In this document: positions 1-44,574 of the stretch, one piece after another
Layout of the letters: each line of letters opens with the position of its first letter
Numbering within the stretch: position 1 is the first letter of the stretch
DNA from: Candidatus Puniceispirillum sp.
GTDB taxonomy: Bacteria > Pseudomonadota > Alphaproteobacteria > Puniceispirillales > Puniceispirillaceae
Assembly (NCBI GenBank): GCA_028382965.1
Contig: JAOEUK010000013.1
Coordinates: forward strand, 1-44,574
Reading direction: 5' to 3'
DNA length: 44,574 nucleotides
The notes under the pieces: generated by a model
Told to the model about the DNA's origin: nothing
Databases searched by the model: none
Seen by the model: the letters and a program-made list of their open reading frames with translations, nothing else
Made by a program: the position numbers and the translations under genes

Positions 1-57
1 GTTTAGAGGATTGTGGCGGTTGATTAGGCTGCTGTTGTTTAGGAAATGAGTATCATT

Positions 58-1113
58 ATGAATAAAGGCTTTGGATTATTATTGGTTTGTTTGTTTGTGT
101 TAGCTTTATTTGCGAGCAGCAATGCTGTGGCTGGAAACTGGAATAGCGGCTCTGGGGCAAGTGGCCTCAATAGTAAAGTCTTAAACCTTAAAGCAAGAGA
201 CCTTTGCAAAGTTTATACTAGTTCTAAAGACTCAAAGTATAAATCATTGGTCAAGAAAGAATTAAAGAAAAGGCTAATTGATGATTGCGTCAATACTGAC
301 TGGGGAGGAAAAACAAAAATTGGTGCTTTATCCTCAGATGATTCAGTTATTTATGGGATTGAAAAAGTGTTCAAGGAGCCAAACGCTGTTATGAGTGAAT
401 TTTCAAACCCTACAGACATTGAAGCAGTAGAACGTGAGAGGAAGGGACCTGGTTGGCGATATGCATCTTCAATAGTTGAGGGTTCAAATAAGGTGATTAT
501 TTATAATCATGGTCACGGGGGCAGGAGCAAACATTATAGCTTGTATGGTTATGGCATAGGTCATCACAAGGGACGTAAAAAAGGCCTAAAAGAAAAATGT
601 GATTGGTATAGTGCAAAAGGGATTAATTGCTATGCTGTATTGAGAAAAACAGCTTCACAGAAATCAAACAAAAGGGCCAATTATGGTCGTTCAATTGAGG
701 CTGCAGAAGTTTTTCAACACATGACAAAACATGTGCGCAAGCTGCATGGAGACAATGTAAAAATTTGCTATGTAGGGCATTCAGAGGGAGGCGCATCAGT
801 ATACTATTCCTCTGTTTTTTTGAAAGGTCGTCACGTCTCAATATCGCCAGGAATTATCCACACTCCATACACATGGAAAGGGACGTATTTTCAGGAACAA
901 ATAAATGACGTCAATCTTGCCAAAAACCTCACTATTTTGATTGGTGAGAATGAACCTAAAAAGAACTCTGGCTATCAAGATTTGATAGATGGTCTAAAGG
1001 GTTATCAACATGTAACCGTAAAAATAATTCCATATTTTGGGCATGGCAAAATGTCAGACAATAGGTTTTTGGATGAAATAGGCCCTGAAGTAATAACAGG
1101 ATGTAATTTTTAA
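58..1113 (+). CDS. Exported alpha/beta-hydrolase-like protein
   Basis: Predicted secreted protein of about 351 residues; I do not recognise the family. The N-terminus has a short basic stretch, a long hydrophobic core (about residues 5-22) and a small-residue cleavage region (NAVAG), typical of a Sec signal peptide. An N-H-G-H-G-G segment near residue 153 is followed by G-H-S-E-G-G with Ser about 242, which fits the nucleophile elbow of alpha/beta hydrolases. A C-terminal G-H-G (His about 329) could be the catalytic His. I chose ATG 58 over ATG 46 because the AGGA at 41-44 is almost touching ATG 46 and the signal peptide starts naturally at MNKGF. It lies on the accessory side of the integrase and tRNA-Arg. 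The substrate is unknown; esterase or lipase activity is inference. Confidence 0.6.
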   Translation: MNKGFGLLLVCLFVLALFASSNAVAGNWNSGSGASGLNSKVLNLKARDLCKVYTSSKDSKYKSLVKKELKKRLIDDCVNTDWGGKTKIGALSSDDSVIYGIEKVFKEPNAVMSEFSNPTDIEAVERERKGPGWRYASSIVEGSNKVIIYNHGHGGRSKHYSLYGYGIGHHKGRKKGLKEKCDWYSAKGINCYAVLRKTASQKSNKRANYGRSIEAAEVFQHMTKHVRKLHGDNVKICYVGHSEGGASVYYSSVFLKGRHVSISPGIIHTPYTWKGTYFQEQINDVNLAKNLTILIGENEPKKNSGYQDLIDGLKGYQHVTVKIIPYFGHGKMSDNRFLDEIGPEVITGCNF

Positions 1114-3894: not shown

Positions 3895-3971
<77 letters not shown>

Positions 3972-30101: not shown

Positions 30102-30270
30102 TCAAGGCCCTTATGTGGTTGATTGAAGTCAGGCTTTGCTATCCTAAACTTCACCTGAAGTGCTTCTAACATTTTTCTGGGTGAGTAGGCAATCTAACGT
30201 GTAACACTCTCAAATCTGCAAACTTGGAGGGAGTTAAAGAAAAAAAGTTACAAACAAATAGAAAATTGTT

Positions 30271-30296
30271 TTGACAGCTTGAGAAATTTGTATCAA
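30271..30296 (+). promoter_or_regulatory. Possible sigma-70-type promoter of the TIGR02300-family gene
   Basis: TTGACA at 30271-30276 is a perfect -35 hexamer. TATCAA at 30291 is only 14 bases away, shorter than the usual 16-18, so the -10 is uncertain. It lies in the 252-bp divergent gap between aroA and the + strand gene at 30354. Confidence 0.3.
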
Positions 30297-30353
30297 ATCC
30301 CACCAACAGTAATTATTTTAATTAACGTTTAGCTGATTTAAGGGATGTAAAAC

Positions 30354-30713
30354 ATGGCAAAAGTGGAACTTGGGGTTAAGCGGATTTGCTTATCATGCGG
30401 CATGCGCTTTTATGACTTTAACCGTAGCCCAATCGCTTGCCCAGGTTGTGGCACAGACTTTGACTTTGAAAATTTTGCAAAAAGTAAGAAAAGTCGTGAA
30501 GTAAAAAAAAGTAAAACAAAAAAAGTTTTATCTGACACCGAGGCTGTAACAATTAACGATGGGGGTGGTGATGAAAAGACTAGTGTTGATGATGAAGAGG
30601 TTGATTTTGATGAAGAAGGTGCCGACGATACGGATGAATCACTTATAATTACAGATGATCTTGGCGATGAGGATCCATTAGTGCCAAATTCGGACAAAAA
30701 AGAAGAAGAATAA
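30354..30713 (+). CDS. TIGR02300 family protein (zinc ribbon with acidic tail)
   Basis: A 119-residue protein. The N-terminal 45 residues hold two CX2C pairs (CLSCGMRF and CPGCGTDF) with FYDFNRSP between them, typical of the TIGR02300 family found in alphaproteobacteria. A basic Lys-rich stretch (about 43-60) follows. The C-terminal half is highly acidic (runs of Asp and Glu) and probably disordered. AAGGGA is well spaced from the ATG. The function is unknown; zinc binding is inferred from the cysteines. tRNA-Ala follows. Confidence 0.85.
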   Translation: MAKVELGVKRICLSCGMRFYDFNRSPIACPGCGTDFDFENFAKSKKSREVKKSKTKKVLSDTEAVTINDGGGDEKTSVDDEEVDFDEEGADDTDESLIITDDLGDEDPLVPNSDKKEEE

Positions 30714-30897
30714 TTAATTGATAGCTGTTCTTTAGTTGGATCATGTTTAATTTTGCTAAAATCAATAGGGTTAGGTTTATAAAAATTAAAAATCACTTGC
30801 GTAAGCCGTAGCGGCTACGTTAGAAAATAATTGCTGCGCGCGAGCGTGGCACGCTTTGGAACCCGCGACTATAAACGTACAGTCCGTGAGGCACCAA

Positions 30898-30973
<76 letters not shown>

Positions 30974-31177
30974 AATTTTCCCCAGATAAATTGATAAATC
31001 GAAACGTTTCAGGCCTTTTTCTTTAACTTATATGAAAAATGGTCGGTGGAAATTAGTGTTATTAAAAAACTGCAGGAACGTTCGCTTTCCATTAAAATTT
31101 TTAGGAGTAAAAGCAAAAGCTTTCGTTTTGGCTAAATTAGTATCGATAGTGTGTAATAAGTGGTTGGATGTTATTAA

Positions 31178-33075
31178 ATGGAGTTAAAACATATAGTTTA
31201 GTTTTTTGTCTTGTGAATTTTTTTACGTCAATTTTTTTATGCCTCAGATCAAGTCACTTCAAGAAAATGCTCCGAAGCACCGCTCGCTTCTCACTCTGAT
31301 ATTACTTCAGAATTGGACAGCCTAGCGAACTCTGAAGAACAAAGGAAATCTTGTGAAAAACAAGAAGAATAAAAAACTGACAGTGACATTGAAAGTAAAA
31401 AGACGTCCAGTAATTCTCCAAACACTCCAGAAGTGGCGCGCACTTCTAACTTACCTTCAGCGGTTTCGAGCAACGGGGCCCTGATAAAAACGACTGCCAT
31501 TTTTGCTGGGGGGTTAGGGGGTGCTGTTATTGGATCTCTGGGTGAACACAGTAGGAGTAGTGGGGCGTTGGCAGGTCGGTGAGTGGATCCTTTTCTAACA
31601 GTGGGGCTTCTCTGCGTCATATTTGGAAACTTCTGCGTATTGGGCTAGTCACGCGCCCAAAGAAATTAATGCGTCAGTTGCTTATGCTTTGGGGTGCACA
31701 GGCAGCGGAATAATTGTGGGCGTTGTTGATGTTCCTTCGGACTCTGACCACCCTGATTTAGATGCTAATTATGTGACTGGTTGGGATGCATCTGCTGGGA
31801 ATACAAGCGGTGACTGTGGAGGCATTTACTCTAGTTCGCATGGTGTTCATGTCGCTGGAATAATTGCGGCTGAAAATAATTGGACTGGTATGCATGAGAT
31901 TGCACACAACGCTAAAATTAAACCAGTTACAATCTTTGGTGACTCGGAAGCTGATGATACAAACACAAACCAATTAATAACCGCCATTGGACATGCTAGC
32001 GGATCTGGTATAGCGGTCATGAATAATAGTTGGGGAGCTTCTGAGGTAGCTTCATATTCTTTTGGAGGTGGAGCAAGATACTATTCTAGGCCAGTTCTTT
32101 TTTCAGGTGCCCAGTTGTCAAGTGGAGAGTTAAACGCGCGGAAAACGGCAGCTTCAACAACTGTTGTTGTTTGGGCAAATGGGAATGATGGCCAGAACAA
32201 TGCTAATGGAAAGATGCATTCCTGGACCTCTAATGCAGGTGCATCAAGTGGAAGAACATCACATGCTGATTACATTGGTTATGTTGATGCTTCTGCTAAT
32301 ACTAATCAGAATGTGCCTAGTTGGAGGGGTTCTTACCAATTTTATGACAATGGCGCTAGTGGGCCATGGCTTAAGGTGGTGGCTCTAAATGAGGCTGACG
32401 CAATCACCTCTTAAAGCGATGGCTGGGGGTTGCTAAAAATCATTGTATTTCGGCGCCCGGTGGGGAATTAAATTGTTCTCGTGATGCGGGTTTGTATTCT
32501 ACCGTAAATCCAAATGATTCTGGATAAAGGGAAAATTATGGCAATAAGCAAGGTACTTCTGTGAATGCACCGTTAGTATCGGGTGCTTTGGCTATATTAA
32601 AATAACAATTTCCTAATTTGACACCAACACAATTGGTATCTCTTGTTATCAGCACTGCAACTGATTTAGACGCTACTGGCGTAGACGAAGTCTATGGCAT
32701 TTGAAAGTTGATCTTGGGTCCTCTGCCACCCCATCAGAAGCCCTGATTGTGGTATCAGGATCTGGCTCTCCAGTTGGATTAGGCGGTTCTGGAAGTGCTG
32801 GCAGAATAAGATTATCTTCTGCTTTTCAGTATATTTTTGGAAAAAAATTAGGTGAATTGTTTGGAAAAAACATTAGCAAATAAAGGTGCTAATTGAAGCT
32901 TTGATGGCAGTGCTGGCTGTGAAAAAGTTATGTCGAATGTTGAATTGGCGCTAAGATTATATATAAAACTGGAAAAGAAAGGTGTTTCAGTTACTGATAA
33001 ATTGAAGTTTTTAAATTTGATTACCTCAGGATCTGGATTTAAATTCAAAATAATAGAGAAAAGGTTGTTAAATTA
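31178..33075 (+). pseudogene. Degenerate subtilisin-family (S8) serine protease
   Basis: Remnant of a secreted serine protease. From ATG 31178 the frame has stops within its signal-peptide-like start (TAG, TGA) and again near 31367 and 31580. The best-preserved block, 31623-32414, contains the Asp region GVVDVPSDSDHPDL and the His region SSSHGVHVAGIIAAE. The Ser region QGTSVNAPLVSGALAILK follows in another stretch near 32550-32605, after an in-frame stop. Further fragments run to 33075 in at least one other frame. No beta-barrel domain is visible. With stops and frame changes throughout, it cannot make a functional protease. A Ser/Gly-rich, autotransporter-like linker near 31500 suggests an exported ancestor. 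Confidence 0.75.
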
Positions 33076-33150
33076 AACTCTATGTGGATGATGGAATTTG
33101 GAAGTTGCATTTAAACCATTAGTAAAGTTTTTAGGTGATCAGGTTATCAG

Positions 33151-33942
33151 ATGAAATTCACTATTCACGGTGTCAGGGGATCTGTTCCCACCCCTAAGGA
33201 CGGTTTTTTAAAATATGGTGGTAATACCAGCTGCTATGAAATTGAAACTGATCATCACCAATTGTTTTGTGATGCTGGAACTGGGTTCCAGTCTGCTGAA
33301 TTGGAACGAAACACAAAAGATACCTTTGTATTTTTTACGCACTTCCATCATGATCATATTCAAGGTTTTCCATTTAATGCTGGAATTTTTAGGCCGGGGA
33401 AAAAGATTGTTCTCTCAAGTGGACTTTTAGAGGCAAGCAAAGTCAACTCAACAATGCAAAATTATTTTTCAGGGAGTTATTTCCCTGTTGATGTTTTTGA
33501 TATCTTAGGACATTTAACAGTTGAAGAATTTGAAGAAGCTAAAAATTTACTTAATGGTGATGTCAGCATCGACTGCATTAAACTGCAACACCCTGGTGGT
33601 GCAGTTGGGTACAGTTTTGTCTCCCACAATAAAAAAATTGTCCTGTTGCTTGATAATGAATTTTGTTTATCACAAAAAGACGTTCTATTAAAATTTTGTG
33701 AGAACGCGGATTTACTCATTTGGGATGGTATGTTTACACAAGAAGAGTTGAAAGATAAAAAAGGTTGGGGCCATTCAAGCATTGAACAAGCGGTTGATTT
33801 TACAGAACAGTCAAGTGTCAAGAGGACGTTGATCTGCCATCACGCACCAAACAGGTCTGACCAAGATATCGATAAACTAAGGTTAAAAATATCATCTCAA
33901 AGCGTGGACTTTGGTTTCGAAAACATGTCCTTAATCATCTGA
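33151..33942 (+). CDS. MBL-fold metallohydrolase
   Basis: A 263-residue metallo-beta-lactamase-fold protein. The N-terminus MKFTIHGVRGSVPTP and YGGNTSCYEIE are typical of a lactamase_B_2 subgroup often found beside or fused to signalling proteins. The dinuclear metal motif FFTHFHHDHIQGF (HxHxDH), LQHPGGAVGYSF, the Asp in VLLLDNEF and the C-terminal LICHHAPNRSD are present, so an active hydrolase is likely. A phosphodiesterase acting on a cyclic nucleotide or another phosphoester is conceivable because two cyclase genes are next door, but the substrate is not shown by sequence. Confidence 0.8.
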   Translation: MKFTIHGVRGSVPTPKDGFLKYGGNTSCYEIETDHHQLFCDAGTGFQSAELERNTKDTFVFFTHFHHDHIQGFPFNAGIFRPGKKIVLSSGLLEASKVNSTMQNYFSGSYFPVDVFDILGHLTVEEFEEAKNLLNGDVSIDCIKLQHPGGAVGYSFVSHNKKIVLLLDNEFCLSQKDVLLKFCENADLLIWDGMFTQEELKDKKGWGHSSIEQAVDFTEQSSVKRTLICHHAPNRSDQDIDKLRLKISSQSVDFGFENMSLII

Positions 33943-34038
33943 TTGAAAGCTGCTCTTATAGATGTCTACCTAAATTTCTTTTGCGCGGTGTTCTTATAAA
34001 AACCAGGGCACCAGGATGGCAGCAAAAACAGTGTGATT

Positions 34039-34923
34039 TTATTTATACTTATCTTTAACCTTCATAATTTCAAGAAACACTGCATTTGATATTTGGTCTG
34101 CAACGGTGTCGCTAACCAAGGCCATTTGACCAAGGGGGCCTCCAGTGTTACCTGACCACAAAGTTTTTCCACCAGGTGCTTTTAAAACAATGTCGACGTC
34201 AAAGTTTTGTCCACTCGCTGATATAGTGCCAATGACTTGATAATCATCCTCACTTGGATTTTGCTGAATTATGGAGTCAATCCAATCTTTTTTGTCTAAA
34301 TATTTTGCCAGATCATTTGTCACATCATGTGCAAACGATGAGACATCCGCACCAGAGCCGCTAAAAGGTTTAACGGCGATAGCAGGGCCGTCGTTGTCTC
34401 TATCCATACCTTTTGAGCCAACATTTAGTCTTCCAGTGCTCCAGACTTCTACGGGGGTAGCAATATTCTTAAGAGTTTGTTTACCGCAATTATTAAAGAC
34501 TTTGGCTTGGTTTTGATCAAGACACAGATAGGCAGAAGTTGAAATGGCGACATCACCTTGTTCAGCAATTGATTCTAGGCGAGCTGCAATGTTCACGGTG
34601 TCGCCATAAACGTCTGGTGGCGGGCCTTCTTCGTGTTCAACGTCTCCTAAATGAATTCCAACCCTTAATGCAAGATGTCCCTGACTTTTTGAAATTTCTT
34701 GCCATTCCATCGCACAATTCACAGCATTTGATGCACTGTTGAATTCAATTAGCCAGCCGTCGCCAAGCGACTTTATCATCGTGCCTTGATGTTTCTCTAA
34801 GGATGGTCGGATAATTTCCTTGGTAAAGTTACGAAGCTTTTCCAATGTTCCAGGCTCATCTTGAGCCATCATTTTGGAATAACCGACTATATCAGCAAGA
34901 AAAATGACTCCTAAACTGCGCAT
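34039..34923 (-). CDS. Class III adenylate/guanylate cyclase with C-terminal TolB/FlgO-like domain
   Basis: A 294-residue protein. The cyclase homology domain (about 1-165) has metal Asp in FLADIVGYSKMM, the second metal Asp in IKSLGDGWLIEF, and DVYGDTVNIAARLES with the transition-state Asn and Arg. It is therefore probably catalytic. After a linker, residues about 185-294 (AIAVKPFSG, FAHDVTNDLAKYLDK, GTISASGQNFDVDIVL) resemble the TolB-N/FlgO-like module often found in alphaproteobacterial cyclases. No membrane segment is seen. A strong GGGAGGG lies before the ATG. ATP rather than GTP as substrate is likely but unproven. Confidence 0.85.
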   Translation of the reverse strand: MRSLGVIFLADIVGYSKMMAQDEPGTLEKLRNFTKEIIRPSLEKHQGTMIKSLGDGWLIEFNSASNAVNCAMEWQEISKSQGHLALRVGIHLGDVEHEEGPPPDVYGDTVNIAARLESIAEQGDVAISTSAYLCLDQNQAKVFNNCGKQTLKNIATPVEVWSTGRLNVGSKGMDRDNDGPAIAVKPFSGSGADVSSFAHDVTNDLAKYLDKKDWIDSIIQQNPSEDDYQVIGTISASGQNFDVDIVLKAPGGKTLWSGNTGGPLGQMALVSDTVADQISNAVFLEIMKVKDKYK

Positions 34924-35252
34924 TCTTCACCCTCCCTGTTCTTTAGACTTCTTATCCAAAAAATATTCCAAGATTAATCGTGGGATATCAGTCTGAAATA
35001 ATACATAATAACTTAAGCTCATCAAATTAAATTAGACATATCATTTTTACTAACATCGAGAAAGATATTTTGGTTTTTTTTATAACTAGCAACGTTATTT
35101 ATTTTTTTATTCATATAGTTTGGGATCTTTTTAAGGATTGAAAGTTTTGAAAGTTAAATTGTTAAAAATCTGAAATGATGATAAAAATTAAATATAGTCT
35201 AAAAAATCATATAATTTTAAGCTATTTTGATCAACGTTGAATCAAGAGCAAA
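34924..35252. promoter_or_regulatory. AT-rich divergent intergenic region
   Basis: A 329-bp gap between the - strand cyclase and the + strand coiled-coil gene, with no ORF of interest. It must hold divergent promoters. A perfect tandem 9-bp direct repeat, TTGAAAGTT at 35138-35146 and 35147-35155, could be a regulator site. The long A/T tracts could bend DNA. No confident -35/-10 pair could be picked. Confidence 0.35.
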
Positions 35253-35825
35253 ATGGGCACACTAGCTGTGAAATCTGTGACGATAAACGAAAACCAAACA
35301 GAGGTTGTCCATCTGAGGGCAACAATAATTGTGCTCAGAGAGCAGTTGGAGACGCTCTCTTTTGAGAGCGATAAAGCTGTACAAAAATCAGTGATGCGCT
35401 CCTCTGATGAAATACAACAATTAAAAGACACCAGTAGTAGCCTTCGGAATGAATTAGAAAATCTTAAGTTTGACAAGGATGCTGCAGTGCAACGTGCAGT
35501 TCAGAGCTCAGCTGATGAGATTCAGCAGCTGAAGAATACGGCGTCAAGCCTCCGAAGTGAGCTCGAGGGCTTAAGGTTTGATAAGGATGCAGCGGTTCAG
35601 CGTGCGGTGCAAAGTTCGACTGATGAGATCCAGCAATTAAAGAATACCACTTCAAGCCTTCGTGGTGAACTTGAGAGCTTAAGGTTTGAAAAAGATGCAG
35701 CGGTTCAGCGTGCGGTGCAAAGTTCGACTGATGAGATCCAGCAATTAAAGAACACCACTTCAAGCCTCCGCTCTGAAATGGAAAAACTACAACTGGATCA
35801 AAGTGAAAAGAAGAAATTAATCTAG
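35253..35825 (+). CDS. Coiled-coil repeat protein
   Basis: A 190-residue protein of unknown function. Residues 29-172 are four tandem 36-residue units (pattern RxELExLxFDKDAAVQRAVQ, then SSxDEIQQLKNTxSSL), followed by half a unit. Leu and Ile at heptad-like spacing and the high Glu, Gln and Lys content indicate an extended coiled coil. There is no signal peptide or membrane segment. AAGAG is correctly placed before ATG 35253. The GAF-cyclase gene follows after 43 bp on the same strand, so an operon is likely, perhaps with a scaffold or sensor-clustering role. That role is inference. Confidence 0.8.
   Translation: MGTLAVKSVTINENQTEVVHLRATIIVLREQLETLSFESDKAVQKSVMRSSDEIQQLKDTSSSLRNELENLKFDKDAAVQRAVQSSADEIQQLKNTASSLRSELEGLRFDKDAAVQRAVQSSTDEIQQLKNTTSSLRGELESLRFEKDAAVQRAVQSSTDEIQQLKNTTSSLRSEMEKLQLDQSEKKKLI
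35337..35822 (+). repeat. 108-bp tandem repeat array (4.5 units)
   Basis: Units start at 35337, 35445, 35553 and 35661, with a partial unit from 35769. Units 3 and 4 share an identical stretch of nearly 60 bases, while units 1 and 2 are more diverged. This points to recent duplication at the 3' side and possible copy-number variation. Each unit is in frame (36 codons). Confidence 0.9.
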
Positions 35826-35868
35826 ACCGAATTAAGATTGTTAATTTTGTTGATGCTTATGTAATAGG

Positions 35869-38217
35869 ATGGTGACTTTTTTCATGGAAAATAATATCAC
35901 ACCAATGAATTTTGAAGATCTAAAACGGCAATTCGAAAAGCTGGAGAAGAAATCCCGGCGCACTGAATTACTTTTGGCAATCAATCGAAAAATTTCAAGT
36001 CTAACAGACTTGAATGAAATTTTATTTCATATCATCGCTGAGGTTGTTTCTGAGTTAAACGCGGAAAGAGGAAGTCTTTTTTTAAATGATCCTTCCACGG
36101 GTGAGCTGTATTCGCGGGTTGCCCAAGGAGAGTTGACAAGAGAAATACGTTTTCTTAACACGTCTGGAATTGCGGGCTCAGTATATCATTCCAAAGACAG
36201 TGAAATCATCCATGATGTTACGGTTGATGAGAGATTCAATAAGTCGATAGATGAAAGAACAGGATTTACAACCAAGAGTATAATTTGCACACCAATCCGC
36301 ACCACTCAAGGCGAAGTTATTGGTGTTGTTCAAGTTCTCAATAAGAACAAAGGTCGTTTTACTAAAAGTGACCTCGAAATGGTTTGCGCAATCACAGAGC
36401 AAGCTGCAGCAACTTTGCAAAATGCTCAGGGACTTGAACAGCAAGCCTTGTCGCGAGAAAAAGAAAAGCTGTTTATTGACTTGGTTTCTGATGTTACTGC
36501 AGAAATCGAACTTGGGTCACTACTTCAACGAGTAATGACAGAAGCAACCAAAATGTTAAATGCTGATCGTGCTACTCTCTTTCTACATGATCCTAAAACA
36601 AGTGAATTATTTTCACGTGTAGCAATGGGCGATAATGTGGGAGAAATCCGTCTTCCTGATAACGCTGGAATAGCTGGCTCAGTTTTTCAATCCAAAGAAA
36701 CAGTTAATATACCTCACGCATACGCTGACCTTCGTTTTAACCCTGCATTTGATAAAAAGACAGGCTACTTCACTCGTTCCATACTTTGCGTTCCCATTAT
36801 GAATAAGGATGGAATATGTATTGGTTGTACTCAGGTTCTTAATAAAAGTGGCGGTGGATTTACTGAGGAGGACGAGTCACGCCTGAAAGCCTTTACTCAA
36901 CAAGTTGCAATAGCTCTTGAGAATGCACAGCTCTTTGAAGAGGTCGCAAAAGAGCGCACATACAGTGATAGTATGCTTGCCAGTATGTCAAATGCAGTTG
37001 TGACAATTAATGAAGATGGAAAAATAGCAACTTGTAACAAGGCCGGCCTTAAAATCTTTAAAGTCATCCCAGTGCAAATCATTGGTAAAACGGTTGAAGA
37101 ATTTTTCTCAGGAAATCGATCTTGGATGCTTGAAAAATTTAACCAGTGCAATGAATCACAAGAGAATATTGATCTTATAGATGTCACATTCGAAGTTGGA
37201 AGTGAAGACGATGGAACTTTAGAAACAGTCTCTTCAAATGTGAGTTTTTTACCTCTAGAAAACAATGATCCAGATGGAAGAACGGATCAAAAGTCACAGC
37301 ATTTGGGCACATTAGTGGTTATTGAAGACATTTCAGATGAAAAAAGAATGAAATCGACCATGTCGCGATATATCGACCCCGGCATTGCTGAACAACTCAT
37401 GTCTGATGGGACAGATATAATGGGTGGCCAAGAAACTGAAGCAACGGTGCTTTTCTCTGATATACGAAGTTTTACCACGATAACAGAGACGCTAGGTGCT
37501 CAGGGCACTGTTGCGCTATTAAATGAATATTTTGATATTATGGTTGAAGCGATTAGTGAACAGGGTGGGATGGTCGACAAATTTATTGGTGATGCGATAA
37601 TGGCTGGCTTTGGAATTCCACTAGCACACGATGATGACGAGGATAGGGGAGTTCGTGCTGGAATTAATATGATCAAACGGCTTTGGGAATGGAATGGACA
37701 GAGAGAAAATGAGGGTAAGCCACCCGTTGAAATGGGCCTTGGTTTGAACACAGATAAAGTTGTGTCAGGAAATATTGGATCTAGTAAAAGGATGGATTAT
37801 ACCATGATCGGTGATGGGGTTAATTTGGCCGCTCGGCTTGAAAGTGCCTGCAAGTCTTATTCCGCTCGAATTCTGATTAGTGATTTCACCTATCAGAAAT
37901 TAAAAGGAACATATCAGGTTAGGTACATCGACGACGTGATAGTTAAGGGTAAAACAACACCAGTTGGCGTTCGGGAAGTTCTTGATTATCATACACCAAA
38001 AACTTTTCCAAACCTTATGGACAACGTGAATCATTTTAATGAGGCACGATCATCGTTTAAAGGTGGGGACTGGGACAAAGCCATCAAGTCGTTCAATGAA
38101 TGCTTGAAATGTAATCCAAAAGATAATCTGTCAAACACTTATTTGGAAAGATGTGCAATTATGAAAAAGCAGAATCCAAAGGATTGGGATGGAGTTTGGA
38201 TTATGACTTCTAAATAA
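35869..38217 (+). CDS. GAF-GAF-PAS class III adenylate/guanylate cyclase with C-terminal TPR
   Basis: A 782-residue soluble signalling protein. Two GAF domains (about 40-190 and 205-355) both contain the ADRATLFLHD / AERGSLFLND and RSILCVPI / KSIICTPI patterns. A PAS-like domain follows (about 365-485: SMSNAVVTINEDGKIATCNKAG). The class III cyclase domain (about 515-695) has metal residues in VLFSDIRSFTT and DKFIGDAIMAGFG, plus RMDYTMIGDGVNLAARLES. Lys in DKFIGD and Asp in MDYT suggest ATP as substrate. A C-terminal region (about 715-775) looks like a TPR pair. The start among ATG 35869, 35884 and 35905 is uncertain. It is probably co-transcribed with the coiled-coil gene. Confidence 0.88.
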   Translation: MVTFFMENNITPMNFEDLKRQFEKLEKKSRRTELLLAINRKISSLTDLNEILFHIIAEVVSELNAERGSLFLNDPSTGELYSRVAQGELTREIRFLNTSGIAGSVYHSKDSEIIHDVTVDERFNKSIDERTGFTTKSIICTPIRTTQGEVIGVVQVLNKNKGRFTKSDLEMVCAITEQAAATLQNAQGLEQQALSREKEKLFIDLVSDVTAEIELGSLLQRVMTEATKMLNADRATLFLHDPKTSELFSRVAMGDNVGEIRLPDNAGIAGSVFQSKETVNIPHAYADLRFNPAFDKKTGYFTRSILCVPIMNKDGICIGCTQVLNKSGGGFTEEDESRLKAFTQQVAIALENAQLFEEVAKERTYSDSMLASMSNAVVTINEDGKIATCNKAGLKIFKVIPVQIIGKTVEEFFSGNRSWMLEKFNQCNESQENIDLIDVTFEVGSEDDGTLETVSSNVSFLPLENNDPDGRTDQKSQHLGTLVVIEDISDEKRMKSTMSRYIDPGIAEQLMSDGTDIMGGQETEATVLFSDIRSFTTITETLGAQGTVALLNEYFDIMVEAISEQGGMVDKFIGDAIMAGFGIPLAHDDDEDRGVRAGINMIKRLWEWNGQRENEGKPPVEMGLGLNTDKVVSGNIGSSKRMDYTMIGDGVNLAARLESACKSYSARILISDFTYQKLKGTYQVRYIDDVIVKGKTTPVGVREVLDYHTPKTFPNLMDNVNHFNEARSSFKGGDWDKAIKSFNECLKCNPKDNLSNTYLERCAIMKKQNPKDWDGVWIMTSK

Positions 38218-38218
38218 A

Positions 38219-38250
38219 CGTAGTGCCAAACCGTTATCGATGGTACTACG
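38219..38250 (+). terminator. Hairpin after the GAF-cyclase gene
   Basis: CGTAGTGCCA (38219-38228) pairs with TGGTACTACG (38241-38250), ten pairs with one G-T, and a 12-nt loop, starting 2 bases after the stop codon. There is no T-tract, so it may be a Rho-dependent 3' end or mRNA-stabilising hairpin. Confidence 0.45.
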
Positions 38251-38476
38251 TTGCAAAGAAAAGCTTAGGTCATAATTTCAAAAATTCCTACTCCGTGGCT
38301 TTTTGGATTTTGACTCTAGTGCAACACTGTTAAATGTTAACGATAAATTTAATTAGCAACATAGTTTGAGTTATACTTAGTATGATAGAGTTTTTATAAT
38401 TAGATAAGATCTTTTAGAGAAGTGTTTTTGAAGGTTCTTAAAATAAAACTAAGTCTCCAAGATTTGAGGTCCGGAC

Positions 38477-39805
38477 ATGAAAAGTTTACTATTTAAAAAG
38501 CGCAACCCGATATATGTGTATGCTTTTTTGTTGGCGATTAGTCCCGGGCCTGCCTTAGGCATGACGTTGGAAAATGCTCTAATGCAAAGCCTCAAAACTT
38601 CAAATAAAGTAGCATCTTCTCGGGAGGGCTGGGTGGCTGCACGTGAGTCAATATTTGCCAGTGGTTCTACTAAGGAAACTTCCTTTAAGTATTCTGGCTC
38701 TACATCCTTAACTGAGGCTGATAGTGGCAGTGGGTACAAAAGTTCCGATTCGTATTCAAACAAGATTACCATGTCTAGAAATTTATACGATGGCGGTCAA
38801 TCAAAGGAAAACCGTCTAAAAGCTGAAATAAGTTTGCAAAGAACAACTGCTCAATATAAGGGAACAGAGCAAGGCGTTATTCTTGAGACGGTACAATCAT
38901 TTCTGGGCTTGATAAAGTCACGACAGGAATATGAATTGCAAACAAAAAATTTAGATAGATTAAAACAGCATGTTACAGCTGCAGAAGTAAGGGTTTCGCA
39001 GGGGACAGATACACTTACGAGTCTTGCTGAAGCTAAAGCCCGCTTCGCAAGGGCGCGGGCGGATACAGCGCTAGCAAAAGCGCAGCTTGAAAGCTCAGAC
39101 GATAGTTTTGTGAAACTTACAGGTGTAAGTTCTGCTACTGAGATCAAATTCCCAGAGCTGTTAAATGTAAAACAGATGCTTCCAGAAACAATTGGTTTGG
39201 CAGAAGAGCTGGCATTAAAAAACAATCCGTCAGTCTTGACAGCGATGGCGGCTGAGAAAGCGGCGTCTCAAGACTTAGTCATAACTAAGACTAAGCAAAA
39301 TTCAACAGTTGCTTTCAGTCTTTCAGCCACGGATGGTAAGTCCTCTGACTCACTCGCAGCGTCGCTTACGCTCTCAGCACCGCTCTACGCAACTAATTCG
39401 ACCACTTCAAATGCTCGTAAGACAGTTGCATTACATTCTAAATCTATGATTGACCTCCGCGAGGCACTGAGCGCTGCTAAACTTAAAGCAAGAGCAGCTT
39501 TTCGGGATTGGGATGCGGTAAAAATCACTTCGAATGCTGTTGAGGCTGAAGTAGAAGCGTCTCGGTTAGTTCAGAAGGGTGTTTCCAATGAAGTAAAGTA
39601 TGGTCTTAAAACAACGCTAGATATGTTGGACGCAGAGAAAAGTTTTTCTGAAGCAGAGCTCCGCCTTGTGAAAGCTAATCACGATGAAATCCTGGCAGAA
39701 TTTGAGCTCATTAGCGCTGTTGGAAAGCTAACTCTGGAAAATCTTGGTTTAGGGAATCCTCTGATACCATTGGATGAAATTCCGAGGCCTAAAAATCCTC
39801 TTTAA
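38477..39805 (+). CDS. TolC-family outer-membrane efflux/secretion protein
   Basis: A 442-residue protein. An N-terminal signal peptide (LLFKKRNPIYVYAFLLAISPGPALG, split here as a basic start then a hydrophobic core) precedes a TolC-like body. The body has two OEP-type repeats: helices around residues 80-210 with NLYDGGQSKENRLKAEISL, and around 260-425 with VSNEVKYGLKTTLDMLDAEKSF. It would form the trimeric outer-membrane duct of a tripartite secretion machine. GAGG is well spaced before ATG 38477. It converges on the adaptor/ABC operon, so it is very likely its outer-membrane partner, though transcribed separately. Confidence 0.85.
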   Translation: MKSLLFKKRNPIYVYAFLLAISPGPALGMTLENALMQSLKTSNKVASSREGWVAARESIFASGSTKETSFKYSGSTSLTEADSGSGYKSSDSYSNKITMSRNLYDGGQSKENRLKAEISLQRTTAQYKGTEQGVILETVQSFLGLIKSRQEYELQTKNLDRLKQHVTAAEVRVSQGTDTLTSLAEAKARFARARADTALAKAQLESSDDSFVKLTGVSSATEIKFPELLNVKQMLPETIGLAEELALKNNPSVLTAMAAEKAASQDLVITKTKQNSTVAFSLSATDGKSSDSLAASLTLSAPLYATNSTTSNARKTVALHSKSMIDLREALSAAKLKARAAFRDWDAVKITSNAVEAEVEASRLVQKGVSNEVKYGLKTTLDMLDAEKSFSEAELRLVKANHDEILAEFELISAVGKLTLENLGLGNPLIPLDEIPRPKNPL

Positions 39806-39879
39806 TATTAGCTTTTATTTGTAGAAAAAGGCTTAAATGAAAAGCTCAAACTAAATGAGATCGGCATTTGCAATTGTAA

Positions 39880-39896
39880 GCTTAAAGTTTAAGCTC
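39880..39896. terminator. Possible hairpin between TolC and HlyD genes
   Basis: AGCTTAAA (39880-39887) and TTTAAGCT (39889-39896) form an inverted repeat with a 1-nt centre in the convergent 170-bp gap. The stem is A/T-rich with no clear T-tract. It could be a weak bidirectional terminator or a palindromic protein site. Confidence 0.25.
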
Positions 39897-39975
39897 AAAA
39901 ACAGAATTTAACAAAAAACTTAAGGCAATAGTCTATCTTAAACCGCCCCGCATATTATGATGAATAAAATAGCTC

Positions 39976-41955
39976 TTACGGTTCCCTGAAGGAAGTTTCA
40001 AGTGTCTTAATGACAGGAAATAATAAGAACGTCATGACTGTTCTCTTTCCTGATATAATGTTTCCATTCACACTCATACTTGGCAATAGCTTAAACCCCT
40101 CTGGGAGCTTAACCAAATTATTATCAGTGATTTTTATCTCAGCCCGATAAACACTATTTTTCTCTCCAAAAACGTCTTCATCAACGGTGTCCTTTGATAA
40201 AAGCGATACTTCGCCAAGGAGCTCACCATGTTTTTGTGAGGGCAGGGAGTCCAGCATTATTTTGACTTTGGCTCCCTCATAAACATGCGTAATGTCGGCC
40301 GGATCAATATCAACCTCAACATGAAAATCTAAATCATTTGGCACTAGGGTGGCGATTACATCGCCCGGTTTAATGACTGTACCTTGAAAACGATCTTCAA
40401 GCTTCAAGACGGTGCCAGCAATTGGTGCAACTAATTTAACGTCTTCAATTTGACGTGATAACTTGATAAGTTTTTCTGAAGAGCTTTGACGTTTAAGAGC
40501 TAAATCCTTTAACAACTTATTCTTTTCTCGCAATTTCCCGGAGACGAATTTTTCTTGTTCCAAATTAGCCTTCATCAGCTCTAAGGAGTTTTCTTCTCTG
40601 TCGATACCAATATTTTGAATATCAGATGCCAACTTTCTCTCACGCTGCTCAAGGCTGTTAAGTTCCGTTGAAAGACGCTGCATATCTTCAAAGGTACTGG
40701 CAATTTGTGACGTAAGATATTTTTCTAGATTATAAATCTTTTTTTCATACTCTGCCTTAGGAATAATCTGCTGGGCAATTAAGGCCTTGGATCTATTAAC
40801 CTCTCCTTTGAGATCAGTAAGCAAAGTTTGAATTTCGGCTGTTTTACTATTGAAATAGTCTAGCGCCTCACTGGTTTCATCAACCTCGTAAGGTTTATTT
40901 TGAAGGTAAGCAAGCAATTGGGTCTTAACATTAAGGCGTTGGCGTTTAGTCTTAATATCGGGACGAACTGCTTTGCTTAATTCTTCCTGAAGTGAGATGC
41001 CTTTTAATTTTGTGCGCTCTAATTTTACTTCTAATCCTGAGACCTTCGCAATGTGACCTTTGTTTTGCATTTTTATTTCACGAACCTGGTCGTCAAACAT
41101 TGCCAATTGAAGATCACCGGTGGGCGCTTCAAAATCTTTATCTAATATAAAATTTAATTCAGCCTTTGTGCGAATAATGTCAGTTTCAGTTGCTGCTAAT
41201 TCATCCCGTGTATTACGGAAATCTGAAGCAATCAGTGTTTCGTCAAACAAGGCGATTGGCTGGCCTTTCTTAACATCATCACCTTCTCTTACAAGAATTG
41301 TTTTAACTACTGACGAATGATTTGATTGAACTTCAACGTTTGCAATTGACGTCAGAATTTTCCCGCGGGCTGACACAGTGACATCAATTTCTGCTAAGCT
41401 GGCCCACACACCAAAACTTACAACCATCGCAATAATGGCCATTCCAGCAATTGCTAGCGGTTTTTTGGGTGAGATTTTTGCAAACTCATCTAGATCATCA
41501 TTAAATTCACGCAGTGTTCGCTGCGTGTAGGTGTCAATTGCTGTACCTTTTGTCGATTCGTTTACCGTTTCTAGACTAGTGCCTACTTCTTCACTAAAAG
41601 CATCCCTGTTCAACCGTTCATTTGCTGTTCGGACATAACTTGCTAGACGCCGCATCATTTCTATAGATGCGGTTGGTGAACTTGACAGGTGCTTTTTTAG
41701 TTGCTCTTCAGAGATTACCTTTAAAGTACATTCAGTCTTGGCCCTAGCAGAAGCGCTTCTGGCACTGCCATCTATAATTGCCATCTCACCAAAAAGAGCT
41801 CCTTTTTCAAGCTCAGTCAAAACTGTTTGTTGGTCCCCTGTAAACTTTACAAGTTCAACTGTACCGCTATCAATCATGAAGGCGGTTTGTCCAAACTCCC
41901 CTTCTCGAAAGATATAGTCACCTGGAAGAAGGGTTAAAATTTCATCTTTACTCAT
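39976..41955 (-). CDS. HlyD-type periplasmic adaptor fused to N-terminal cyclic-nucleotide-binding domain
   Basis: A 659-residue protein. Residues about 5-120 are a cyclic-nucleotide-binding domain: GDYIFREGEFGQTAFMIDSG, then the phosphate-binding cassette FGEMAIIDGSARSASARA with Glu57 (ribose contact) and Arg66 (phosphate contact) both kept. A linker leads to one membrane helix (about 167-187, AIAGMAIIAMVVSFGVWASL). The rest is a type I secretion adaptor: a lipoyl half-motif near 205-235 (VKTILVREGDDVKKGQPIALFD), a long coiled coil (about 240-500), the second lipoyl half VKLVAPIAGTVLKLEDRFQG, and a beta-barrel part. The start overlaps the ABC stop by 4 bp. The topology places the nucleotide domain in the cytoplasm beside the ABC protein. 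Ordinary HlyD proteins have only a short cytoplasmic tail. Confidence 0.9.
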   Translation of the reverse strand: MSKDEILTLLPGDYIFREGEFGQTAFMIDSGTVELVKFTGDQQTVLTELEKGALFGEMAIIDGSARSASARAKTECTLKVISEEQLKKHLSSSPTASIEMMRRLASYVRTANERLNRDAFSEEVGTSLETVNESTKGTAIDTYTQRTLREFNDDLDEFAKISPKKPLAIAGMAIIAMVVSFGVWASLAEIDVTVSARGKILTSIANVEVQSNHSSVVKTILVREGDDVKKGQPIALFDETLIASDFRNTRDELAATETDIIRTKAELNFILDKDFEAPTGDLQLAMFDDQVREIKMQNKGHIAKVSGLEVKLERTKLKGISLQEELSKAVRPDIKTKRQRLNVKTQLLAYLQNKPYEVDETSEALDYFNSKTAEIQTLLTDLKGEVNRSKALIAQQIIPKAEYEKKIYNLEKYLTSQIASTFEDMQRLSTELNSLEQRERKLASDIQNIGIDREENSLELMKANLEQEKFVSGKLREKNKLLKDLALKRQSSSEKLIKLSRQIEDVKLVAPIAGTVLKLEDRFQGTVIKPGDVIATLVPNDLDFHVEVDIDPADITHVYEGAKVKIMLDSLPSQKHGELLGEVSLLSKDTVDEDVFGEKNSVYRAEIKITDNNLVKLPEGFKLLPSMSVNGNIISGKRTVMTFLLFPVIKTLETSFREP

Positions 41956-44129
41956 GGTAAAACACTCTTGGTTGAGGCTTTAAAAGCTTGTTCGAATTTG
42001 GGACTGATAACACGGAGTTGTTTTCTCATCAATTCCTGAGCCGGGCCATCTTGCTCAAGTATACTCCCGGTCGGACCAAATTGTGCTAAATTTGGCCCTG
42101 CAAAAAACATGAGTTTTTTGCAGACTGTTAGATTATGGAGGTCTCTTGAAATAAGAATCACAGTTCGACTTTTTGAAATTTGATCAAATGACTCTTTAAA
42201 GCCAAGGACGCTGTCCGTATCCATTTCGGAAAAGATGTCATCAAGAATTAGGATTTTTGGATTTCTAATAAGGGCCCGGGCTAGGGATAGTTTAATTTGA
42301 AGGTCTGCGTTCCAAATCTCCTTAAGATCATCGATCTGGGTCTCCACTGTTACATTTAGTTTTTCCAGTGCGCTCTCAGCATTCGCCATTTTACAAGCCC
42401 ATGTTATCCGATCGTTATTGGCGTTTGGCAAAACTCTTTGAAAATTATCTCGCAGTGAGCCAGGAAAAAAGTGATTGGTTTTATCAACTAATGCAATATT
42501 TGAACGTAAGTGCTGAAGATTAAAAGTTGAAACGTCATTTCCATCAATCAAGATTGACCCAGACGACACTGGAAACAGGCCTTGCAAGAGGTGCCCAACT
42601 GAACTTGCAGTGTCTGTATTTTCCTGAGAGTAGCAAATTCCGACAGTCTCATTCACATCGATTGAGAATGAGGCATTTTCTAAAACTGTAGACGTTTGAT
42701 CCCGGATGAAAGTAACATCCTGGAAACTAACGGAACCCACCATGTCATGAAAATTGCCAGATGTTTTGTTTTCTGAAGACAAATTACTGGCTGATGCAAA
42801 GGCATCCAACATGCCTGATAGTTTTTTCATTTCACCTGGAAATTCAACGAGTGACTGAGCTGGACGGAATATTTTACCAATTAGCATGTTAACACCAATT
42901 AAAACACCTGCTGACAAGGCGCCATCAAAAACCATTAGAACGCCAATAAACAGCACAACAACTGTCAATATATTATTCAATAATGTTCCAAATTCACTGA
43001 TAAATGCCCCACTTGATAGGTTTTTATCATTGGAGCGGAGAAAATTTCCTTCAACCGTCTTCCACTCCTTAATTACATCACGCTCGAGCCCAAGCCTTTT
43101 TATGTCGATAAAGCCTTCGCCAACAGAAGTGAGAACTTTTTGACGTTCATTGGAATCAGCAGAGAACGCTTTGGTGACTGCTTGATTGCGTCGTTCATGA
43201 AGAGCGTTTATCACACAATTCAGCAAAGAAACGGCAACAACAATAGCCCCAAGGATTGGGCTATACACAATAAGAATAGGTACAAATAACAGAACAGCCA
43301 CGAGGTCGGTTATAATGCCAAGAAATTTTGTGATAATGACTGATCTTATGTTGTTCAGGCTTTGTCCTAAATTAGGGAACTGACGGCTTTGCTCTTTGAA
43401 TGTTGAAACTGGCAAATTCATAATTTGATTAAATATAAGCATACCATATTTAGCCTCAATTTTAGCTGCTGCAAGGTTAATTATAGCTGACTTGTAGTAG
43501 GTAAGAAGGAAGTTGAAAATGTGAGCGATTAAGACACCAGAAGCTACAACATATAAGGTAGAATAACTCTCGTAGTTGACAACCTTGTCTAGAACAATCA
43601 TCAAAAATACAATTGGCGCCAGGGCAAAAATATTAATAAAAAGTATTATCAGAACTAACTGCGCACAGACCCATTTATCTTCCAGTATATCGTCGAATAT
43701 TGCCCCAACACTAATTTCACCAGAATCAAGCCTGAGTTTCCTGGATTTTTTAAAAATCAGTCCAGAGCCATTCCAAAGAGCTTTAAATTCGTCAACATTA
43801 ATTGTCTCAGCTTTTGGAGCGGTCGCTTTTGGGTCAATGACTGTGACAGTTTGGGATTCGCCGCTATCTGCAGAAAATTTCAGTACTATCACGTACCGCC
43901 CATTTTTCAATTGTGCTAGAACGGGTTCTTTTTTTACTGCTGCAGACAATCCATCAATGCTTGTTTTAAGTGCGCGACAAACCAACGAATGGTCACGCGA
44001 CAACTTTTTTATTTCACCAAAGCCAAGCTCCCGTGAATCAATATCGTTAAATTTATTAAATTGTTGCTCGCCAAGTTCAACACCTAACCGTCGCGCAATA
44101 ATTTGGAGGCCAATGGCACCTGAGAGCAT
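41952..44129 (-). CDS. HlyB-like type I secretion ABC protein with degenerate ATPase motifs
   Basis: A 725-residue protein with an N-terminal C39-peptidase-like domain (about 1-130) lacking the catalytic Cys, a membrane domain (about 150-420, several hydrophobic helices such as LIILFINIFALAPIVFLMIVLD), and a C-terminal ABC domain (about 465-700). The ABC motifs are degenerate. The Walker A position reads YSQENTDTA (500-508) with Asp506 in place of Lys. LSGGQ is replaced by WNADL (606-610). Walker B LILDD keeps Asp630 but has Asp631 instead of the catalytic Glu, and the switch His is Arg662. It should not hydrolyse ATP as a normal ABC domain. A stop codon five codons upstream limits the start to ATG 44129. 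The overlap with the adaptor gene shows tight coupling. Confidence 0.88.
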   Translation of the reverse strand: MLSGAIGLQIIARRLGVELGEQQFNKFNDIDSRELGFGEIKKLSRDHSLVCRALKTSIDGLSAAVKKEPVLAQLKNGRYVIVLKFSADSGESQTVTVIDPKATAPKAETINVDEFKALWNGSGLIFKKSRKLRLDSGEISVGAIFDDILEDKWVCAQLVLIILFINIFALAPIVFLMIVLDKVVNYESYSTLYVVASGVLIAHIFNFLLTYYKSAIINLAAAKIEAKYGMLIFNQIMNLPVSTFKEQSRQFPNLGQSLNNIRSVIITKFLGIITDLVAVLLFVPILIVYSPILGAIVVAVSLLNCVINALHERRNQAVTKAFSADSNERQKVLTSVGEGFIDIKRLGLERDVIKEWKTVEGNFLRSNDKNLSSGAFISEFGTLLNNILTVVVLFIGVLMVFDGALSAGVLIGVNMLIGKIFRPAQSLVEFPGEMKKLSGMLDAFASASNLSSENKTSGNFHDMVGSVSFQDVTFIRDQTSTVLENASFSIDVNETVGICYSQENTDTASSVGHLLQGLFPVSSGSILIDGNDVSTFNLQHLRSNIALVDKTNHFFPGSLRDNFQRVLPNANNDRITWACKMANAESALEKLNVTVETQIDDLKEIWNADLQIKLSLARALIRNPKILILDDIFSEMDTDSVLGFKESFDQISKSRTVILISRDLHNLTVCKKLMFFAGPNLAQFGPTGSILEQDGPAQELMRKQLRVISPKFEQAFKASTKSVLP

Positions 44130-44153
44130 AATCCCTGATCCTTAAGATAGAAA

Positions 44154-44186
44154 ATTCCGGCACTAAAAAATTATTAGTGCCGGAAT
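44154..44186 (-). terminator. Strong intergenic hairpin between repeat ORF and ABC gene
   Basis: A perfect 12-bp stem, ATTCCGGCACTA (44154-44165) and TAGTGCCGGAAT (44175-44186), with a 9-nt loop that can add one more A-T pair. On the - strand it is followed by TTTTC. It lies after the stop of the - strand ORF at 44199 and before the ABC start, so it can end or attenuate transcription into the secretion genes. Confidence 0.75.
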
Positions 44187-44198
44187 AAAAGTTTTGAA

Positions 44199-44574
44199 TT
44201 AAACGACGTCACCGCCACCTGGCTCAGCATCAACCTTGCCTTCGTCAACGTCAGCGGCTGTATTCGCTGCGTCCATACCTTCTGCCATATTTGCAGAGGC
44301 TGCAGTATCCATGGCGGCCATCGCTCCATCAAATGCTGGGTTGCCACCTATTGGATCTCCGCCACCCATTGGGTCACCGCCCATAGGATTGCCGCCCATT
44401 GGGTCACCGCCCATAGCATCACCTGTAGGAGGAGGCATCCCTCCGGCGTCGCCACCAAGGTACTGACCATCGGAACCCCAACTTTCAGGAGACTGGTCGT
44501 ATACCTGTCCAACGCCCTCAGGCATCATTTCTGTCTGAGCTGAGTTCATAGCAGTAGCAGCATCAGATGGCATG
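44199..44574 (-). CDS. Gly/Met/Pro-repeat protein, C-terminal part (runs to window edge)
   Basis: An ORF of at least 124 codons reaching the right edge. The first visible Met, at 44573, may be internal, so treat it as possibly partial. The centre has pentapeptide repeats (GGDPM, GGNPM, GGDPM, GGGDPI, GGNP). The tail is Ala-, Met- and Asp-rich and acidic, ending EPGGGDVV. There is no signal peptide in the visible part and no recognised domain. It is followed by a hairpin and then the type I secretion ABC gene on the same strand. A secreted substrate or the tail of another secretion component are both possible; I do not recognise the family. Confidence 0.5.
   Translation of the reverse strand, partial: MPSDAATAMNSAQTEMMPEGVGQVYDQSPESWGSDGQYLGGDAGGMPPPTGDAMGGDPMGGNPMGGDPMGGGDPIGGNPAFDGAMAAMDTAASANMAEGMDAANTAADVDEGKVDAEPGGGDVV
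44338..44423 (-). repeat. 15/30-bp tandem repeat encoding GGDPM/GGNPM
   Basis: A 20-base stretch at 44366-44385 recurs exactly at 44396-44415, a 30-bp period made of two pentapeptide units, and flanking units are imperfect. Such arrays are prone to length change by slippage. Confidence 0.75.

Follow-up and report, generated by a model that had tools for sequence, protein, structure and literature searches.

A type I secretion-like locus of Candidatus Puniceispirillum with a predicted cyclic-nucleotide-binding adaptor domain and an ABC protein without ATPase motifs

The stretch of DNA analyzed here (the window) is the entire contig C5, 44,574 bases, of the 2.38-Mb genome G000 of a Candidatus Puniceispirillum sp. 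(99.6% complete). At its right end lies a block of genes in which makers of a signal, two predicted class III nucleotide cyclases, and a putative reader of it, a HlyD adaptor with an N-terminal cyclic nucleotide monophosphate-binding domain (cNMP-HlyD), stand beside an export channel with a decayed motor, suggesting signal-gated export that is powered in some other way. The locus probably encodes a variant type I secretion apparatus that serves a cargo of its own and whose adaptor carries a cyclic-nucleotide gate, the motor being without ATP hydrolysis. Its core unit consists of a cargo open reading frame (ORF), a HlyB-like ATP-binding cassette (ABC) protein and the cNMP-HlyD, and with the TolC-family channel encoded nearby the type I secretion gene set of ABC exporter, HlyD adaptor and TolC is present (Table 1). 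All eight genes that a preliminary description had named (two cyclases, a metallo-β-lactamase (MBL)-fold hydrolase, a coiled-coil protein, TolC, cNMP-HlyD, the HlyB-like ABC protein and a repeat ORF) were found in place.

The ABC protein and its adaptor

The family sample comprised 61 genomes, many of them 50–80% complete. Full-length cNMP-HlyD orthologs were found in nine (G000, G017, G018, G026, G060, G007, G008, G011 and G012), and 40 further genomes matched through the HlyD or cNMP parts only. Orthologs of the ABC protein were found in the same nine genomes (next-best match 23% identical, E 4e-44); the two genes were adjacent in 9/9, and neither ortholog was found in the other 52. When the ABC alignment was compared with 385 genomes of the class at a cut-off of E 1e-100, eight passed, G000 included (also G201, G299 and G068, all of another family, f9, and G287, G119, G411 and G171, the ABC gene of G287 lying at a contig start), and a cNMP-HlyD gene adjoined the ABC gene in all seven others. 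At the level of the phylum, 46 of 398 genomes matched the adaptor alignment at E ≤1e-50; 14 of these matches, including that of G000, covered both the cNMP and the HlyD parts and 32 did not, and each of the other 13 spanning adaptors was encoded beside a HlyB-type ABC gene. The pair was thus found in 29 genomes overall, with the transmembrane domain (TMD), the C39-like domain (CLD) and the HlyD parts conserved among pairs and TolC genes beside many of them. Five related loci are from SAR116 or Candidatus Puniceispirillum. No relative was found on viral contigs; 1593 plasmid records matched, and the 15 of these that were listed all start at residue 89 or later and so are without the cNMP domain. 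A weak match in Wenzhouxiangellaceae, limited to the cNMP stretch (residues 19–73), was dropped.

The cNMP domain occupies approximately residues 9–90 of the adaptor and is presumably cytoplasmic, because it is N-terminal to the sole hydrophobic segment (residues 167–185). Its phosphate-binding cassette (FGE, Arg) is intact in 29/29 cNMP-HlyDs, which makes the adaptor a putative cNMP receptor. Structure predictions of the cNMP-HlyD and the ABC protein from 9-row alignments gave mean predicted local distance difference test scores of 52 and 48, respectively, and were set aside.

In the nucleotide-binding domain (NBD) of the window's ABC protein the P-loop, the LSGGQ motif, the catalytic Glu and the H-loop His are all gone, and all four motifs of a working ATPase are lost in 9/9 family members. 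At the motif level the label "pseudo-ATPase" given earlier was therefore right; of the "full envelope-spanning export path" proposed with it, the ABC protein, HlyD and TolC are all there, but the motor is without the motifs of a working ATPase. Among 29 ABC proteins tabulated, seven are canonical (that of G171, five of f197 and one of f213), and in the remaining 22 LSGGQ is altered and the H-loop His missing. The LSGGQ change is mild in G518, G537 and G533 (LTAGQ, LTSGQ), 19 of the 22 are also without the catalytic Glu (retained in G119, G411 and G586), and the P-loop is missing in all nine family members, Gln replacing its Lys in G537. In a tree of 30 ABC proteins, whose root depends on one very distant row and whose long branches were flagged, the 22 degenerate proteins formed one clade (99/100) with the nine family members as a nested clade (100/100). 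Of five genome pairs compared, two have measurable dS, and in these dN/dS of the NBD is ~0.05 (G017/G026, 0.042/0.77; G007/G008, 0.012/0.24); by these rates the seemingly dead NBD is under purifying selection, held less tightly than the rest of the ABC protein. As described in parts of two articles on the E. coli system, Glu and His form the catalytic dyad of HlyB (PMC8277102), and the H662A variant of HlyB binds ATP without hydrolyzing it and does not bring substrate to the surface (PMC5018854). Contig C13 of G000 encodes another, separate type I pair that is PrtD-like and is accompanied by an incomplete RTX ORF rich in Gly and Met (L087 3-3843).

The cargo

The cargo ORF is Met-rich and built on a 16-residue repeat. 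Its conserved C-terminal module (aligned from eight of the first ten C-termini listed) was found in 10/61 family genomes, namely the nine that hold the pair plus G028 (59% complete), and not in the other 51 (Fisher p 6e-10; the Fisher tests here and below were made over 61 related genomes, so that p values overstate and serve as guides only). Second copies of the C-terminus lie elsewhere in G000, G017 and G018. G000 holds two start pieces and two end pieces of cargo genes. The cargo starts that were read show no hydrophobic signal (computed for G000:C12 and G068, judged by eye for the others) and no evident Sec signal. By eye, a common cargo tail is seen across families.

Within the degenerate ABC clade, an acidic Pro/Met/Gly-rich ORF stands beside the pair in 19/22 genomes (G287, G582 and G460 not settled). 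Sixteen cargo ORFs or pieces have a net charge of -0.13 to -0.38 per residue; Lys and Arg are entirely absent from 12 of them, and the other four have one or two. The cargo of G518, counted apart from these sixteen, has 2 in 321 residues. Among 725 distinct ORFs of at least 120 amino acids, drawn from the loci fetched around this system and so not a random set (ORFs with unknown residues were skipped, and the N- and C-terminal pieces of one cargo gene may be counted twice), the median ORF has 10.9% Lys+Arg. Only 24 have two or fewer, and these are 23 cargo ORFs or pieces plus one antisense shadow of a cargo. L176 5241-6209 on the minus strand, at first taken as the G518 cargo, was rejected as an antisense shadow of the real one. 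His, Asn and Gln are kept in the cargo, a point that bears on nitrogen saving or compositional drift as the cause of the Lys and Arg loss.

The canonical-ABC relatives that were scanned (4/7) have RTX neighbors instead, with M10/RTX in three of the six f197/f213 genomes and HlyC plus an RTX ORF next to the G171 pair; four full-length RTX neighbors contain 28–51 Lys+Arg. Eight cargo ORFs or pieces scanned gave no RTX match and a single sub-threshold match to another family. Genes for a DUF1538 protein and a small P-II-like pair lie next to the cargo gene starts of G000 and G026; such genes also adjoin a cargo-like piece on G018:C38, and they close the f9 operon.

Cyclases, cyclic-nucleotide readers and gene order

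Both cyclases of the locus carry the metal-binding Asps and the purine pair, Lys plus Asp or Thr, of class III enzymes. In the small cyclase the metal Asps, the Lys/Asp pair and the Asn/Arg are all in place, and both proteins are predicted class III adenylate cyclases. The Thr in the purine pair of the GAF-cyclase might point to a bicarbonate-type enzyme, a reading that is no part of the assignment. A search of G000 for class III cyclases (PF00211) found exactly two, both in the window. Two each were found in G017, G018 and G026 (80, 79 and 84% complete), all at the locus, and a single one in G060 (97% complete), beside the cNMP-HlyD gene, so that in these five genomes the locus cyclases are the only PF00211 cyclases found. 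Among 12 other genomes of the genus, 11 have no PF00211 cyclase and G025 has one that is unrelated (Fisher p 0.003). The other family genomes with the pair have more class III cyclases: five in G007, seven each in G008 and G011, and 14 in G012.

Orthologs of the small cyclase (E 7e-38 or better) were found in 10/61 family genomes, seven of them with the pair (Fisher p 9e-6); G002, where the gene is a fragment, and G032, where it has an internal stop, have it without the pair. GAF-cyclase orthologs (at least 73% identity) were found in 7/61, six with the pair (Fisher p 1e-5). The co-occurrence of cNMP-HlyD, GAF-cyclase and pseudo-ABC genes, proposed earlier as a check, held in six of seven GAF-cyclase genomes, G003 being the exception. 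The HFHHDH motif of the MBL enzyme is present in 7/7 orthologs examined, and models of RNase Z and of cyclic-nucleotide phosphodiesterase match it far below their cut-offs; it is a candidate cyclic-nucleotide or cyclic-phosphate hydrolase.

In the window and in G017, G018 and G026 the order is MBL, small cyclase, coiled coil, GAF-cyclase, TolC, cNMP-HlyD, ABC and cargo, so that the MBL-to-ABC order is kept in 3/3 other genomes of the genus that have the pair. Beyond the MBL gene the flanks are unrelated and of three kinds (G000; G017/G018; G026); on the cargo side flanks are not comparable, as contigs stop there. A kept gene order beside differing MBL-side flanks is what a unit travelling as a whole would show, and the arrangement is not chance. 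In G060 neither GAF-cyclase nor coiled coil nor TolC separates the MBL and small cyclase genes from the neighboring cNMP-HlyD gene. A CHASE2-cyclase gene begins ~20 bases after the cNMP-HlyD gene on the same strand in G011/G012. These CHASE2-cyclases (L041 11744-13885; L042 5842-7986) have Ser at the position of the catalytic Asn and may be impaired; a FecR-domain ORF follows the one in G012. In G007/G008 the contig with the pair shows no cyclase: MBL, coiled coil and GAF-cyclase, the coiled coil staying with the GAF-cyclase, form a separate cluster, and the small cyclase lies at a third site. In the f9 genomes the order is TolC, cargo, ABC, cNMP-HlyD, CHASE2-cyclase, two lone cNMP proteins, a DUF1538-like protein and two small proteins that resemble the P-II-like pair of G000:C12 (one of the pair there reaches Pfam P-II). 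Each f9 genome has two class III cyclases. G201 and G068 have one of the two at the locus, where the HlyD and CHASE2-cyclase genes share a 4-bp overlap; the G299 contig stops inside the HlyD gene.

A cyclase therefore lies in the cluster in 7/9 family genomes with the pair and in 9/29 over all pairs. The distant search, made with two home-made profiles on ORFs from 80 or 90 amino acids up, found no cyclase in the examined stretches of the 13 out-of-class pairs or of G287, G119, G411 and G171. Conservation of the neighborhood, proposed in the preliminary description as a check, was borne out in the family, where the pair is always adjacent and cyclases and secretion genes are mostly linked rather than varying independently; beyond the family, cyclase linkage is not a general rule.

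Two further cNMP proteins of G000 are encoded away from the block. One is a CRP-like regulator (G000:C36) whose cNMP pocket is intact; it has orthologs (at least 46% identity) only in G000, G017, G018, G026 and G029 (5 of 8 genomes matched). In G000, G017 and G018 its gene stands beside a cargo gene start (Table 1), and no cargo was seen beside it in G026 and G029. The cyclic-nucleotide signal may therefore control cargo expression too, and the wiring is not only local. The lone cNMP protein of G000:C34 also resembles matches in genomes without class III cyclases and probably serves another purpose. The "locally wired" circuit of the preliminary description thus holds as far as the family linkage goes, but not for G007/G008, for the distant CRP-like reader or for most distant relatives, which have no nearby cyclase.

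Within the window, the MBL, coiled-coil, GAF-cyclase and TolC genes lie on the plus strand and the small cyclase, cargo, ABC and cNMP-HlyD genes on the minus strand, the cargo/ABC/cNMP-HlyD unit being convergent with TolC. The ABC and cNMP-HlyD genes overlap by 4 bp. The hairpin between cargo and ABC genes has the longest stem of 18 found (shuffles, 8.3 ± 3.0), and a promoter scan gave no excess (27 vs 26.4). To the left of the block are an S8 peptidase ORF (31623-32414) and tRNA-Ala (30898-30973), after which G+C falls from ~0.46 to 0.39–0.41 (window 30001-44574), together an island-like edge. Toward the opposite contig end an integrase-like ORF (1665-2858, labeled by reading) lies near tRNA-Arg (3895-3971), and the ORFs at window 46-1113 and L087 13753-15021 share, by eye, a near-identical N-terminal leader of ~25–30 residues.

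Table 1. Features of the locus and of related sites; positions without a locus number are those of the window
Feature	Position	Strand	Remarks
MBL-fold hydrolase	33151-33942	+	Lactamase_B_2 E 7.8e-12; HxHxDH motif intact
Small class III cyclase	34039-34923	-	Guanylate_cyc E 7.2e-17
Repetitive coiled-coil protein	35253-35825	+	Generic coiled-coil matches only; without hydrophobic segment
GAF-GAF-PAS-class III cyclase-TPR protein	35869-38217	+	Guanylate_cyc E 2.4e-22
TolC-family outer membrane channel	38477-39805	+	OEP E 1.3e-32; TIGR01844 151 bits, cut-off of 225 not reached
cNMP-HlyD adaptor	39976-41955	-	cNMP_binding E 3.1e-20; TIGR01843 226 bits, above cut-off
HlyB-like ABC protein	41952-44129	-	C39-like domain, TMD, NBD; TIGR HlyB model below cut-off
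Terminator-like hairpin, 13-bp stem	44154-44186	-	Separates cargo gene from ABC gene
Cargo ORF, C-terminal 124-aa piece (Met/Pro/Gly/Asp-rich repeat ORF)	44199-44574	-	Cut by contig end
CRP-like regulators	L085 475-1188 (G000); L105 7099-7806 (G018); L108 377-1078 (G017)		Directly upstream of cargo gene start
DUF1538 and P-II-like genes	L135 5121-7543 (G000:C12); L136; L137; L149 184-2557

Proposed mechanism, alternatives and known systems

We infer gating by the cNMP domain, with cAMP as the ligand, and, from the anatomy of the locus and the co-occurrence of its parts, export of the cargo. The cyclases would make a cyclic nucleotide, most likely cAMP, on signals sensed by GAF/PAS domains, and the MBL enzyme might perhaps remove it. 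On binding the nucleotide, the cNMP domain of HlyD would toggle the HlyB-HlyD-TolC assembly between a closed and an open state. Through this assembly would pass the cargo, a polyanion that looks disordered and whose C-terminal tail is shared, the HlyB-like protein serving, to judge from its motifs, as channel and cargo receptor and not as a working ATPase. Because that protein is without ATPase motifs, the driving force would have to come from elsewhere, plausibly from the membrane potential acting, once the gate is open, on a chain nearly without positive charge, which would have made ATP hydrolysis dispensable; proton motive force and an electrostatic gradient are named as possible drives of type I export in part of PMC5018854. 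A more specific version, which is offered tentatively and is rather doubtful, is an exporter without ATP hydrolysis of its own, that is, a cAMP-gated HlyB-HlyD-TolC conduit in which Lys/Arg-free polyanions would move outward electrophoretically in the membrane potential, the positive charges of the cargo and the motor ATPase having been lost in step and the gate preventing leak.

Several observations weigh against gated export of this kind. In three genome pairs with saturated dS, dN is higher in the NBD than in CLD plus TMD (0.137 vs 0.084; 0.139 vs 0.103; 0.163 vs 0.083), and G119 has a PrtD-like ABC piece at a distance of ~8 kb from its pair. No family genome has the cargo gene in full, contigs breaking within it, and complete ORFs were found only in relatives. 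Acidity is not special to the cargo, the RTX ORF of G171 (-0.143 per residue) being like some cargo in this respect, nor is low Lys+Arg content unique to it, the incomplete RTX ORF on C13 having 3 in 277. As for the cyclases, G003 (76% complete) has both without the pair; cyclases, MBL gene and pair co-occur without linkage in G007/G008; the totals of 7 and 14 in G011 and G012 make linkage there less telling; and 20/29 pairs have no cyclase in the stretch examined, partly because contigs end.

The main rival is an ordinary type I system in which a canonical ABC half from another locus joins the dead ABC protein and supplies ATP hydrolysis, the cNMP domain serving for tuning only. That type I ABC exporters can have degenerate sites is well established (as parts of PMC7756269 describe), and candidates for such a partner exist in the other ABC genes of G000, including the PrtD-like gene after the RTX ORF on C13, and in the PrtD-like piece near the G119 pair. 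No second HlyB-type exporter adjoins the pair in the stretches examined, however, where other ABC ATPases lie near some pairs; the next-best family match to the ABC protein is distant, as noted above; and a heterodimer that includes a family member would have no complete composite site, since P-loop and LSGGQ are both missing. This explanation is accordingly considered unlikely. Decidedly unlikely is a second one, that ABC protein and HlyD form a membrane signaling or scaffolding complex without protein export and that the Lys/Arg-poor ORF is an intracellular regulator or ligand. It would account for the complete loss of the P-loop in 9/9 family members, for the faster change of the NBD in three of five pairs and for the presence in the clusters of cyclases, lone cNMP proteins and a P-II-like gene. 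Conservation of the TMD, the C39-like domain and the HlyD parts, TolC genes beside many pairs, conserved cargo C-termini and the lack of a hydrophobic signal in the two start regions tested all speak against such a complex.

Chance proximity of the cyclases to a secretion island has the pairs without a cyclase and the cyclases of G003 in its favor; it is made highly improbable by the attachment of different cyclase types in different lineages, once with a 4-bp overlap, by the five family genomes whose PF00211 cyclases are at the locus only, and by the constant order of the block beside a varying MBL-side flank. Even less credence is given to a Pycsar-like anti-phage module, in which cyclases answer phage and the cNMP-HlyD is an effector that opens the envelope. 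PADLOC models of PycC match both cyclases (best E 2.2e-7 and 2.9e-27), models of TIR effectors match the cNMP domain (E 1.7e-7), and on G032:C17 the small-cyclase ortholog (L081 7236-7781, 70% identical, internal stop) lies beside a PycTM ORF (6542-7120). The effector matches are confined to the cNMP part, however, and those of the cyclases seem to reflect class III homology in general; a TIR or PycTM domain was not found at the locus, and no nearby cyclase was seen for most cNMP-HlyD pairs.

If type I export gated by a cyclic nucleotide is the correct reading, a second messenger acts directly on a secretion adaptor, a point of control for which the open-access papers searched gave no description; nor did they describe a cNMP-HlyD or a type I ABC protein that has lost its P-loop. 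One gene family of the lineage also spans the range from ABC proteins with an intact ATPase to ones without a P-loop, together with a cargo stripped of positive charge. This makes the open question of what drives type I export (ATP, proton motive force or an electrostatic gradient, as posed in part of PMC5018854) directly testable. SAR116 bacteria abound in surface seawater, so that the cargo may be a widespread extracellular protein that has escaped notice.

Pycsar, like the locus, combines a class III cyclase with a membrane-bound cNMP-binding protein; unlike Pycsar, the locus has no TIR or PycTM domain and includes export genes together with a cargo. Where type I ABC exporters have one degenerate site, the other site remains a consensus site, and the proteins function as heterodimers or in full-length form. 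Loss of catalytic motifs is shared with the exporters with one degenerate site that parts of PMC7756269 describe, but here no consensus-site partner is encoded next door. In cyanobacterial bacteriocin exporters, according to parts of PMC3140520 and PMC4558948, a CAP_ED (cNMP-type) domain likewise occurs within a C39-ABC/HlyD cluster, and some clusters encode a stand-alone protein of two CAP_ED domains, which bears a slight resemblance to the pair of lone cNMP proteins in f9. There the domain sits on the ABC protein, not on HlyD, and the cargo consists of bacteriocin precursors; the portions of these accounts consulted mention neither cyclases nor a dead ATPase.

In its parts the locus resembles the haemolysin system HlyB-HlyD-TolC of E. 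coli, with its ABC protein of C39-like domain, TMD and NBD, its HlyD adaptor, its TolC-family channel and a conserved cargo C-terminus. HlyB is the best PDB profile match of the ABC protein (7sgr, then 8dck), and its C39-like domain is described in part of PMC11026475 as the main substrate determinant. The terms "cyclic nucleotide" and "second messenger" are absent from the portion examined of a large review (PMC8277102). Unlike the haemolysin system, the locus described here has a cNMP domain on HlyD, an ABC protein that has lost its ATPase motifs, cyclases in the cluster and a non-RTX cargo nearly free of Lys and Arg.

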